IMG/VR virus record: IMGVR_UViG_3300045440_000075
Span: 1-46,497 of that record
DNA from: a virus
Length of the DNA: 46,497 nt
Reading direction: 5' to 3' (one strand)
The notes under the pieces were generated by a model. It had not been told where the DNA came from and ran no database searches. It saw only the letters and a program-made list of their open reading frames with translations. Every line of letters starts with the position of its first letter. The stretch's first letter is position 1. Below are positions 35,715 through 46,497 of this stretch, piece after piece. A program made the translations under genes and the position numbers.

Positions 35715-37124
35715 TTAGGAAGGCACAACAATGTCACCTACACCAGCGCAGCTATAGCAATCCTGATTGTTCTCAGGAACGATATAAGTCTGCACTTCGC
35801 AGCAGGAACCATAGAGGTTCTTGCTCTTAGGCATACGATGCAAGAAGCTATGCATAATGGTTGGGTCTTTTACCTGTGCAGCAAGACGGAATTGGGCCTG
35901 ATAGAAGCCCGATTTACGCCAGCGGTTGCACTCCCAATCTGGGTTCTTCCAATCCCAATCACCAGCGTAGTTCTGGGTTTGTTGCTGGGCTTGTCCATAA
36001 CCAGTCGAGGAAGGCATTGTCCATTTTACCATTGCCTTGTTAACCATGGCAACCGAGATACCGAAATCGGCATTGCGGTAAGCGCGGTTAGGAATGTATG
36101 CGCAACCTTGCTCAAGAACAGTCTTGATGTAGCGAGGAATACGAACAAGGCGAGGCCATGTTGCAGGATCAGCTTCATTGAAGGCTGGAAGTGCATTATT
36201 GAATGCCGTGTCAGCATTGAAACGAGCGGAGTTGATGTCGTAACCGAAGGCGTAGTCGCCGATGATACGATTGATGCCGAGTTTCAAACGAGTAAGACGC
36301 TCATCGAAATCGGTGTTTGCATCCCAGTAACCGTTGTTACGCTTGGCTTGGAAGTAAAGCGCACGTCCAACTTGTGGGTCAGGGATAACGATGTCGAGCA
36401 AAGGCTGACCAGTCGCATCTTGGAGGTCAAGGCGGAAAGCGTCATCTTCGTCTTGGAGGTCAACGAGTGCATCGTCGAGCATATCAAGCGAGAGATAAGC
36501 AATCTTACCAAGGTCAGCAGCGGCGATCTTAACGCGAAGTGCGCAGAGGTCGTAACCAGCTTCGTTGTTGATGGTATGCTCAGGTACGAACCATGCGCCG
36601 TCATCGACGAGTCCGCAATAGGTTCCGTCATCCGTAGTGATGCCCATCCATTTGTGGCCGGAACCACCGATGTAGTTGGAACGAAGGAACTCTTCGTGGA
36701 CGTTCTTAGTGATACGAGCATTCGACTCTTCAAACTGAAGGATTTCTTCAGCAGGGAACAAGCGGTAGAGCAAGCTCTCAACGCAAATCCAGTCAGTGGT
36801 CATTTCCTTACGCAGCAATTCAAAAGTGTAGGACTCAGTGCCGGGGCGTTGAATCACTTCTGGTTTGCTATCGCAAGAATCAGTCTCGCAGTAGGTGTCA
36901 GTGATCTGACGGAAAGGGGTGCAAGGATCGTGGAATCCACGTCCGAAACGGAATGCTTTCTGTTCAGTTGTATGGTTAAGAGGCCATGCTTGCTCCTCGA
37001 AACGGGTAAAATATGCCGAGTTAGTTACGAGTTTCTTAACATAGAGGTCGTTGAAATATTCGCGGCCCTCGCGGAAGAAACTGTCAATCTCAGCACAACT
37101 ATTGAAGTAGAGTTGATCGCTCAT
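35715..37124 (-). CDS. major capsid protein
   Basis: This 469-residue protein is the probable major head subunit. Evidence is its place after a scaffold-like gene and portal, its own promoter and leader, its length, and a soluble mixed alpha/beta composition with a long N-terminal helix (CAEIDSFFREGREYFNDLYV). It has about 13 Cys (DTYCETDSCDSK, GSCCEVQTY, DCYSCAGVG), unusual for a cytoplasmic phage capsid. I see no motif proving the HK97 fold. The start ATAAAAATCAATG has no Shine-Dalgarno sequence but is very A-rich. Confidence 0.65.
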   Translation of the reverse strand: MSDQLYFNSCAEIDSFFREGREYFNDLYVKKLVTNSAYFTRFEEQAWPLNHTTEQKAFRFGRGFHDPCTPFRQITDTYCETDSCDSKPEVIQRPGTESYTFELLRKEMTTDWICVESLLYRLFPAEEILQFEESNARITKNVHEEFLRSNYIGGSGHKWMGITTDDGTYCGLVDDGAWFVPEHTINNEAGYDLCALRVKIAAADLGKIAYLSLDMLDDALVDLQDEDDAFRLDLQDATGQPLLDIVIPDPQVGRALYFQAKRNNGYWDANTDFDERLTRLKLGINRIIGDYAFGYDINSARFNADTAFNNALPAFNEADPATWPRLVRIPRYIKTVLEQGCAYIPNRAYRNADFGISVAMVNKAMVKWTMPSSTGYGQAQQQTQNYAGDWDWKNPDWECNRWRKSGFYQAQFRLAAQVKDPTIMHSFLHRMPKSKNLYGSCCEVQTYIVPENNQDCYSCAGVGDIVVPS

Positions 37125-37135
37125 TGATTTTTATT

Positions 37136-44207: not shown

Positions 44208-44386
44208 TGATAGTATTTTGTTAGCTCTTGAAATCCGATGGTGGCCAATTCCAATGATTCGTACTCTGGTCTGAGACTGTCTGGGAATGGCTTTCCTCGT
44301 TCGTGCATTGGGCCGGGGTTGCTGGCAGCGTAGGGACTGACTCTGACGTAGTACTTGCCATTTTCAATTTCGAGGAAGGTGCGCAT
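44162..44386 (-). CDS. hypothetical protein, 74 aa, overlapping two genes
   Basis: This 74-residue frame, MRTFLEIENGKYYVRVSPYA..., has a protein-like composition with a beta start and a helical end (ESLELATIGFQELTKYYQ). It overlaps the XRE gene by 166 bp in another frame and the HNH start by 46 bp. Its last codons carry A-AAA-AAG (44195-44189) and T-TTA-AAA (44186-44180), both in its own frame, either of which could shift ribosomes -1 into the HNH frame. It may be the true upstream part of a fused HNH protein, or an independent gene. Confidence 0.45.
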   Translation of the reverse strand: MRTFLEIENGKYYVRVSPYAASNPGPMHERGKPFPDSLRPEYESLELATIGFQELTKYYQCSVEKKGLKKRGQG

Positions 44387-44628
44387 AGTTCAATGACTTT
44401 ATCTACTTGTTCTTTCTTCAGAATACTCTTGGAGTTGACTTCAATCTGGTTGATTAACGATCCAGTTACACCGATCTTGTCACCGAGTTCTCTGACTGTC
44501 ATGCCTAGCTTCCTCCGAGTCTCCCGAAGCTGATTAGCAAAGGTCTTGCGTCCAATAGAACGAATGTAGCGAGACTGCTCATAGGCAGTCATGCAAGATT
44601 CGTAGGCTTCGTATAGTGGATGCTTCAT
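44221..44628 (-). CDS. XRE/Cro-type HTH transcription regulator
   Basis: This 135-residue regulator has a helix-turn-helix of the XRE (Cro/CI) family at about residues 32-72: RETRRKLGMTVRELGDKIGV then TGSLINQIEVNSKSI and VDKVIELC. The N-terminal 28 residues are a helical extension. The C-terminal 50 are Ser/Thr/Pro-rich with no peptidase motif, so it is not a LexA-type self-cleaving repressor. It is the best candidate binder of the dispersed palindrome, because its divergent promoter region carries a copy at the opposing gene's start site. Its own transcript appears leaderless. The C-terminal third overlaps another frame. Confidence 0.7.
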   Translation of the reverse strand: MKHPLYEAYESCMTAYEQSRYIRSIGRKTFANQLRETRRKLGMTVRELGDKIGVTGSLINQIEVNSKSILKKEQVDKVIELCAPSSKLKMASTTSESVPTLPATPAQCTNEESHSQTVSDQSTNHWNWPPSDFKS

Positions 44629-45101: not shown

Positions 45102-45997
45102 TAGCTGTAAAACAACCTCAACGCCTATTCGTCAGAATGAAGAAGGCAGTCTTGAGAGAGGACATAATGATGTTAACTCAAGATGTAACTCAGGCATTGG
45201 TTCTAGGACAAATGCTGTATTGGACAAAAACACTTGATACAGTCAACAACTGGATTTTTGAAGAGAACAAGCGTTTGGCTGAATCTGACCTCCCACAACA
45301 TGAATACAACTATGGTTGGATTTATAAATCGGCCCGTGAAATGCGCGAAGATTTAATGTGTGCTTTTAGTGAAGATGCAATCCAACGTGCGTTTTCTACG
45401 CTTGTCACAAAGGGCCTTTTTATGACCAGAAGTAACCCACGGGTGAGATATGATAGGACTCTTCAGTATCGAATCGACCTTGTTTTTTTGCGTAGATTAT
45501 TGAAAGATCGAGGGTATGAAATGACAGATTTTCAATTGGCAACCATCCCGCAAGAAGCGGTGTTCATTCCGCAAGGTGCGGTATCAATACCGCAATCTGC
45601 GGAAGCAATAACAGAGATTAAAACAAAGATTAAAAACATAGAAGTAAAACCCCTAACCCCTTTTCAAGGGGAGGAGGAAAATTCGGCAATGGCCTCATCT
45701 TCCATAAATGATAAAACTTCAAATGGATTCCAGACCTCTGAATTATTTAATCAGCAACCTCCCGCCGCTAACCCACCCAAGGGAAGGAAATCTAGAGTAC
45801 AAAAACCAGTAGATGCTGAGTTCCTAGCAGAACTTCAAAAACTAAACCCAGACAAAGACGTGGAGCGTGAAGCGAAACACGCACAGAGTTGGCTACTCAG
45901 TCACCCAGAACGTAAATACTCCCGTGCGTTCCTAAGTACTTGGGTCATCCGCTCCAAGAATGTAGTTGATCAAAATCCTTACAGACAATCCTTCTAA
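45098..45997 (+). CDS. replication initiator (winged-helix, lambda O-like role)
   Basis: This 299-residue protein starts at ATG 45098 (MIAVKQPQRLFVRMKKAVLR). Its N-terminal 130 residues follow the winged-helix replication-protein pattern of phages: TQALVLGQMLYWTKTL, GWIYKSAREMREDLMCAFSE, AIQRAFSTLVTKGLFMTRSN, LQYRIDLVFLRRLL. A linker encoded by three 21-bp iterons (IPQEAVF/IPQGAVS/IPQSAEA) follows, then an A-rich coding stretch and a C-terminal domain (NPDKDVEREAKHAQSWLLSH). It probably binds its own gene's iterons and recruits the helicase encoded next, as lambda O does. Stop and next start overlap (TAATG). Confidence 0.65.
   Translation: MIAVKQPQRLFVRMKKAVLREDIMMLTQDVTQALVLGQMLYWTKTLDTVNNWIFEENKRLAESDLPQHEYNYGWIYKSAREMREDLMCAFSEDAIQRAFSTLVTKGLFMTRSNPRVRYDRTLQYRIDLVFLRRLLKDRGYEMTDFQLATIPQEAVFIPQGAVSIPQSAEAITEIKTKIKNIEVKPLTPFQGEEENSAMASSSINDKTSNGFQTSELFNQQPPAANPPKGRKSRVQKPVDAEFLAELQKLNPDKDVEREAKHAQSWLLSHPERKYSRAFLSTWVIRSKNVVDQNPYRQSF
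45545..45607. repeat. three 21-bp iterons, putative replication origin
   Basis: Each unit holds a hyphenated inverted repeat: CCGCAAGAAGCGG (45548-45560), CCGCAAGGTGCGG (45569-45581) and CCGCAATCTGCGG (45590-45602), spaced exactly 21 bp. They lie inside the initiator gene, as lambda's iterons lie inside O, and are followed by an A-rich stretch. Confidence 0.75.
45605..45650. other. A-rich putative unwinding element
   Basis: The 46 bases after the iterons are about three-quarters A+T on this strand, mostly A. They contain two near copies of AGATTAAAAAC (45615-45624 and 45627-45637). In lambda-type origins the DNA beside the iterons is similarly A-rich and melts first. Confidence 0.55.
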
Positions 45998-46497
45998 TGA
46001 AAAAAATACCACTAATGAAAGTAGTCCCAATGGCTACAAAAAGCGAAGCAGCAGCGTTAGCTTTAATCGCAATAGATAGAAACATACTCGCGCAACAAAC
46101 GTGGGAGGTTGATTATTTCGCTCTGCCGCCTCACAGGAAGGTTTTTACTGCCCTCCAAGGGGTTCACCAGCGGACAGGGGCTTGCTGCCCGTTTTCTGCC
46201 ATTGCTGAGTTAGAAGCTACAGGAGAGATCGAAGCGGCTGGAGGAGAGAACGAAGTCCATGAGATTCTTTCTACCATGAAGATTGCTTCTGGGAAGGTTT
46301 GTCAGGATATGGCGGACGATTACCGCAAGCAGCTAGTCAGAAACAAAGGATACCGCGATGTCATCAAGATTATTGAGGAAGAAGAACCCAATATCCGAGT
46401 AGGGAAGTCTGATCTCAAGAAATTATCGGAAACGATAATGAGATGCTCAGAGGATCGTGGTGTAAAAATCAAGCCAGTCAAAGATATTATCTTGGAA
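45997..46497 (+). CDS. DnaB-like replicative helicase, N-terminal part (cut by window edge)
   Basis: The first 167 codons of a gene that runs off the window. After a short start (MKKIPLMKVVPMATKSEAAA) the DnaB N-terminal domain pattern is visible: DRNILAQQTWEVDYFALPPH, RKVFTALQGVHQRTGACCPF, ELEATGEIEAAGGENEVHEI, DDYRKQLVRNKGYRDVIKII. The helicase motor domain would lie beyond the edge. Its start overlaps the initiator stop (TAATG), so loader/initiator and helicase are made together. Codons for LSETI contain palindrome copy 15. Confidence 0.65.
   Translation, partial: MKKIPLMKVVPMATKSEAAALALIAIDRNILAQQTWEVDYFALPPHRKVFTALQGVHQRTGACCPFSAIAELEATGEIEAAGGENEVHEILSTMKIASGKVCQDMADDYRKQLVRNKGYRDVIKIIEEEEPNIRVGKSDLKKLSETIMRCSEDRGVKIKPVKDIILE
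46423..46438. promoter_or_regulatory. dispersed palindrome, copy 15 (inside DnaB-like gene)
   Basis: TTATCGGAAACGATAA lies in the DnaB-like gene, encoding L-S-E-T-I, the same peptide as in the giant gene copies. Confidence 0.85.

Follow-up and report, generated by a model that had tools for sequence, protein, structure and literature searches.

Several phages are known to carry an iteron-type replication origin inside the gene for their replication initiator. Lambda, P22 and Salmonella phage L each have different repeats inside these genes, and those of phage L gene 18 are reported as evidence for distantly related initiators each binding different iterons within the gene (PMC8022706). In the public lambda record, the origin lies inside O and comprises four iterons (spacing 20, 24 and 23 bp), an A-rich tract and an inverted repeat. 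The P22 origin has four iterons in gene 18 (spacing 20, 24 and 23), then the directly repeated A-rich tract ACAAAAGACAATA and the palindrome CCCCCTTACCCCCTAAAGGGGG, and its annotated rep_origin ends exactly at the end of this palindrome. Here, we describe a similar arrangement in IMG/VR virus record IMGVR_UViG_3300045440_000075 (46,497 bases, analysed over its full length and called the window below). Near its right end, positions 45545-45671 very probably form the theta-type replication origin of an uncultured tailed phage, located inside the coding sequence of its own initiator and belonging to the P22 gene 18/12 type (features in Table 1).

The window matches P22 in every part of the order: iterons in the initiator gene, a repeated A-rich tract, a palindrome built from two C-runs and a G-run, and an overlapping gene for a phage DnaB (gene 12 in P22). 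It differs from P22 in the sequence and spacing of its iterons (20/24/23 bp in P22, 21/21 bp here), and its DnaB is just 21% identical to the gene 12 product. Lambda likewise has repeated dyad-symmetric iterons, an A-rich, strand-asymmetric tract and an inverted repeat midway through its initiator gene (PMC7466680, PMC3349717, PMC4488673), but has four iterons of other sequence and spacing, and its next gene encodes the helicase loader P, whereas the window has no P and has DnaB instead. The first-pass annotation of this DNA likened it to lambda ori within O; this is apt for the order of iterons and A-rich tract, but the pairing of an initiator with a phage DnaB is that of P22 genes 18 and 12. 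The annotation also took the initiator to be unrelated in sequence. An hhalign comparison with one lambda O sequence indeed gave no match, but the protein is no orphan, as it matches the PHROG profiles phrog_6493 ('DnaD-like helicase loader', 1.2e-11) and phrog_9773 ('replication initiation O-like', 1.4e-7). Phage L carries its own repeats in a P22-like position inside gene 18, but it infects Salmonella and has six imprecise repeats of an 11-bp unit.

The annotation had described three exact iterons 21 bp apart, each a hyphenated palindrome CCGCA-NNN-TGCGG with the first copy slightly off, followed by an A-rich stretch with a repeat, all within the initiator frame and ahead of a DnaB-like gene. 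The start-to-start distances are indeed 21 and 21 bp, the palindrome is as described, and the frame encloses every element, with the DnaB-like gene next. As whole units, however, the iterons are not exact copies (21-mers 1 and 2 are 76% alike), and the two repeat copies in the A-rich tract, AGATTAAAAC and AGATTAAAAAC, are likewise non-identical. On the coding strand, positions 45603-45652 contain 30 A and 7 T, a composition matched by 43 of 46,448 windows on either strand. This tract is presumably the DNA unwinding element.

A plain count of palindromes was dropped as a significance test, since three sites with at most one mismatch were reached in 4/100 shuffles of the 46-kb window. It was replaced by a score for phased palindromic arrays, and none of 300 synonymous and none of 300 codon shuffles of the gene reached the window's value. 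For weaker arrays this test is indecisive (16/300 synonymous shuffles for locus L073, 7 and 14/300 for L082), and it misses the array of L134.

To place the array among its relatives, we searched IMG/VR with the whole initiator, its N-domain and its C-domain, obtaining 100 distinct initiators. At 40% identity these form five main N-domain clusters (c0-c4, with the window in c0) and two singletons. The annotation had made its origin depend on close relatives also having iterons, and three are present in each of the five closest complete relatives (94-97% identical); more distant ones have two to five. With one mismatch allowed, the CCGCANNNTGCGG motif is present in 22/37 c0 genes and in 0/63 others. 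Iterons in c0 consist of CCGCANNNTGCGG and variants at a spacing of 21 bp, which stays constant where the sequence is altered (CCGCCTATTACGG in L063, CCACACTGTGTGG in L070, CGTCATTTTGACG in L082 and L084). Repeats of other sequence are found 25 and 26 bp apart in c1, 16 bp apart in c3 (CCCGACTCGGG) and 22 and 23 bp apart in c4 (TGGAAGATTCTTCCA), while c2 has a single large dyad at that place instead of tandem palindromes. The arms of this dyad co-vary between alleles in L019, L021, L121, L139 and L151 (CCACCCT/AGGGTGG, CAACCCT/AGGGTTG, CCACA/TGTGG and CCTACTATGT/ACATGGTAGG). In many relatives (L063, L071, L072, L078-L086), as in the window at 45603-45640, the iterons are followed by codons for (T)IPETTTET, which on the coding strand are repeated ACAGAGATTAC-like units and look like a common unwinding element. 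A near-identical CCGCANNTTGCGG-like iteron also occurs in tandem at L045:1097-1130, L047:2643-2676 and L049:284-317. The N-domains of these three loci look unrelated to the window's (that of L047 matches HTH_36), and the likeness could reflect either shared specificity or convergence.

Cultured relatives of c1 are the E. coli K-12 phages mEp010 and mEp021 (protein O-like). They have repeats of about 22 bp at the same place inside the initiator gene, and these repeats differ between the two phages; however, they are 33-41% identical to a c1-type N-domain query and unrelated to the window's own N-domain. No relative was found in GTDB genomes, searched with two N-domain alignments, or in the phage collection, searched with the initiator and the terminase. 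A DnaB search for the host returned many hosts, at only 24-29% identity.

The best evidence that the array is more than a chance product comes from codon usage. Across 17 related genes, and hence not as independent events, every proline codon inside the iterons is CCG (46/46, vs 33/258 elsewhere in the genes) and every alanine codon is GCG (56/56, vs 50/361 elsewhere). Among 11 close genes, all seven fourfold codons with an invariant residue are themselves invariant in the iteron stretch, compared with 10/41 before it. That the palindrome codons are fixed, when they make up 13-14% elsewhere, argues that selection acts on the DNA. One could instead propose that the protein needs the IPQxA peptide repeats, for its structure or for a contact, and that the DNA repeat is their by-product, given that the three units are exactly seven codons each and encode IPQEA, IPQGA and IPQSA. 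Yet the codons are fixed where the peptide permits others, the segment is predicted to be disordered, and other clusters encode unrelated peptides there while keeping DNA palindromes. Judged from these sequences, peptide-level selection offers no account of the constraint, and we consider it an extremely unlikely origin of the repeats.

We also considered where else the motif occurs. The exact motif is confined to the initiator in ten related records of 14-60 kb, at one place per record, and the window's motif was not found in the four of these records with another N-domain or other iterons. This distribution bears on the idea that the palindromes are operators, used by the initiator or another regulator to repress or pause transcription of the gene, with replication starting elsewhere. 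Hyphenated palindromes are typical operator shapes, and a gene for a repressor-like helix-turn-helix (HTH) protein lies nearby (44221-44628). However, the sites lie about 450 bp inside the gene, far from its start, and the lack of a second array near a promoter speaks against a plain operator. The A-rich tract and palindrome that follow the sites, as in the lambda and P22 origins, and the membership of the gene in initiator families (PHROG) also argue against this idea, which we regard as unlikely.

The repeats and the initiator are also linked by their joint exchange. In local alignments with the DnaB of L007, a close relative of the window, identity is 98-99.5% for the DnaB of L015 (c3), L018 (c1), L019 (c2), L024 (c4) and L078 (c0, with other iterons). 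One phage background therefore carries different N-domain and iteron cassettes. Within c1, there are three iteron classes (GTAAC..GTTA, TGAACCAGTTCA and GTAARTNNAYTTAC), and the class tracks the recognition-helix sequence without exception in 26 genes (15 G, 8 T and 3 S). The exchange can be followed along the gene: in comparisons of L127 and L128 with L130, identity is mostly 90-100% ahead of the winged helix and mostly 28-68% over winged helix plus iterons. For L127 and L130, it is 90-100% in the first 150 nt and 28-64% thereafter, through winged helix and iterons. Both the iterons and the recognition helix (predicted at residues 51-64 in L128) hence lie within the swapped block. L140 and L149 show the same pattern as L127 and L130. 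By sequence comparison, then, winged helix and iterons are evidently transmitted and swapped as a single cassette on a constant background of C-domain and DnaB, which is the signature expected of a DNA-binding protein and its own binding sites.

A comparable situation is known from the satellite replicon PLE, whose DNA-binding domain and origin covary while the C-terminal domain is conserved; for its RepA and origin, such covariation has been demonstrated experimentally to mean cognate pairing (PMC8263062). PLE differs in that its origin lies in a noncoding region outside repA. As to the RepA_N fold, initiator structures are tied with generic winged helices in the comparison below. As a separate observation, the C-terminal domain is also exchanged, with at least three types behind the same N-domain and palindrome (L010, L011, L024-L028, L033 and L034), and the initiator is therefore mosaic on both sides.

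Cassette exchange would also be expected of a recombination or incompatibility element, for instance one that marks the edge of a cassette or keeps out related phages by titration, with replication starting elsewhere. It is evident here, and ectopic origin copies have been reported to arrest lambda (PMC4488673). Against this, the repeats covary with the recognition helix, and they differ completely between cassettes and are therefore not the homology used for exchange. We consider this explanation highly unlikely.

The predicted structure of the initiator fits an origin inside its gene. An AlphaFold2 model, built on an alignment of 29 relatives, consists of a winged-helix domain (predicted recognition helix at residues 92-104), a disordered linker and a small C-terminal domain, and the same architecture is predicted in two N-types. 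The C-terminal domain is common to 69 loci and is presumably the helicase contact. In structure comparison, the N-domain's neighbours in the PDB are generic winged helices (Z 7-8.6); the initiator structures 4pql, 4pt7 and 5kbj (Z 7.5-8.1) are tied with these, as is the DnaD N-domain 2v79. The winged-helix fold is thus supported by prediction, but the tied scores single out no family. A sequence search of solved structures gave no match. N-domain clusters other than the window's match similar PHROG groups.

Together, the codon constraint, the retained iterons, the exchange of domain and iterons, and the order of iterons, A-rich tract and palindrome found in lambda and P22 give good comparative support to the iteron-type origin inside the initiator gene that the annotation had proposed. 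In the mechanism we envisage, the N-terminal winged-helix domain would bind the three palindromic iterons, and the bound initiators, two helical turns apart, would bend the DNA and, by analogy with lambda and P22, put the neighbouring A-rich tract under strain until it opens. Next, the C-terminal domain would bring the phage's own DnaB, the product of the next gene, to the open strand. The linker codons hold the iterons, A-rich tract and palindrome together, and the iterons are probably tolerated inside the gene because the linker they encode is predicted to be disordered. Specificity is modular, with winged helix and iterons swapped as a cassette and C-domain and DnaB retained.

Table 1. Features of the replication region. 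Positions refer to the window; residues refer to the initiator.
Feature	Position	Strand	Basis or remark
Replication initiator gene (P0001), 299 aa	45098..45997	+	PHROG matches; ATG start common to relatives
Winged-helix DNA-binding domain, residues 21-137 (predicted)	45158..45508	+	AlphaFold2 pLDDT mostly 82-95 (residues 21-140); PDB winged helix-turn-helix matches
Disordered linker, residues 150-235 (predicted)	45545..45802	+	AlphaFold2 pLDDT <50
Iteron 1 CCGCAAGAAGCGG	45548..45560	+	13-bp hyphenated palindrome, one base off
Iteron 2 CCGCAAGGTGCGG	45569..45581	+	Exact CCGCA-NNN-TGCGG
Iteron 3 CCGCAATCTGCGG	45590..45602	+	Exact CCGCA-NNN-TGCGG
A-rich tract with direct repeat AGATTAAAAC (45615) / AGATTAAAAAC (45627)	45603..45652	+	30 of 50 nt are A
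C-run/C-run/G-run palindrome CCCCTAACCCCTTTTCAAGGGG	45650..45671	+	Inner hairpin 45657-45671; concerted changes in relatives
Three-helix C-terminal domain, residues 240-288 (predicted)	45815..45961	+	AlphaFold2 pLDDT 76-79 over most
DnaB-like replicative helicase, N-terminal part	45997..46497	+	Pfam PF00772, 8.6e-7

The palindrome CCCCTAACCCCTTTTCAAGGGG was missing from the first-pass annotation. In it, a directly repeated C-run precedes its own complement, a design found in 19/37 c0, 2/9 c3 and 8/8 c4 genes vs 10/1080 codon shuffles. Its variants change in concert, from CCCCT-CCCC-GGGG to CTCCT-CTCC-GGAG. Single-strand folding of the window's palindrome is unexceptional (z -0.9), while that of P22 is stronger (z -2.9). 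As an essential part of the origin, the palindrome was rejected for the group as a whole, c1 and c2 being without it. The C-run/C-run/G-run hairpin (CCCCTNACCCC..AAGGGG, which often encodes TPLPPKGG) recurs directly behind an A-rich tract in the initiator genes of unrelated phage families (window 45650-45671, P22 L177:3464-3485 and L179-L264).

Using a relaxed palindrome pattern, we obtained at least 119 IMG/VR stretches and read 91 sites. Among the matches listed, 44 of the 91 lie in open reading frames (ORFs) of at least 150 codons, in 28 distinct contexts. PHROGs were used to check 24 of these ORF contexts: replication initiators or primosomal proteins, from several groups, account for 19, and the other five comprise an exonuclease, a head protein, a DNA polymerase and two contexts with no match. 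Most of the initiator contexts read TPLPPKGG after an A-rich stretch. About half of the sites are outside long ORFs, and the element may therefore also be a mobile repeat similar to repetitive extragenic palindromic (REP) sequences. The recurring hairpin is a lead rather than a mechanistic result. One tentative reading, which we think somewhat doubtful, is that the palindrome is a portable third part of phage origins, an alternative-hairpin element common to unrelated initiator families and perhaps the site of helicase or primase loading, and that the wealth of iteron alleles stems from escape from rivals that target the origin, an idea put forward for PLE.

Several observations weigh against the interpretation of 45545-45671 as an origin. 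Profile comparison detected no homology of the initiator family to lambda O or P22 gp18 (hhalign against a single gp18 sequence gave a probability of 0.2%). The C/G palindrome is absent from clusters c1 and c2, and an automatic iteron search gives weak or no tandem palindromes in several members of the same two clusters. The shared ancestry of the genes behind the codon counts belongs here as well. The annotation had further suggested looking for a strand switch in GC skew, but no sign switch was seen at the iterons in five long relatives (50-60 kb records), a weak test because skew follows gene orientation. AT skew does flip near the initiator in long records, but together with the direction of transcription, and hence provides no test.

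Around the probable origin, the initiator ORF could alternatively start at a GTG (45029) rather than at the ATG. The DnaB gene shares one base with the initiator stop codon and runs off the end of the contig, and the record is thus truncated in its replication region; the full-length orthologue in L007 has about 416 aa. Members of all five N-domain clusters have a DnaB match within 2.5 kb downstream of the initiator. Rfam and tRNA scans of the window found nothing. Further upstream, at 35715-37127, two long ORFs overlap almost fully on opposite strands (469 aa on the minus strand and 429 aa on the plus strand), and the 469-aa ORF has no match in PHROGs. The ORF at the end of L076 terminates in consecutive glycine codons, which probably stem from a poly-G sequencing artefact where the contig stops.

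In-gene origins of the iteron type are already known, and the window is very probably another case of this design, in an unusually rich natural series. Origins of the lambda/P22 type are usually known as a few distant examples, whereas here the series lies within one environmental phage group. It combines near-identical helicases and C-domains with five or more N-domain families; in c1, three iteron classes are exchanged along with the recognition helix, and c0 varies its iterons at a constant 21 bp. That the C/G hairpin recurs in unrelated initiator genes suggests an origin component that is shared but has drawn little attention. The cultured phages mEp010 and mEp021, which have the same design, offer an entry to laboratory work, and the series makes the recognition code of these initiators, and the rules by which phages exchange their origins, directly testable by binding assays.
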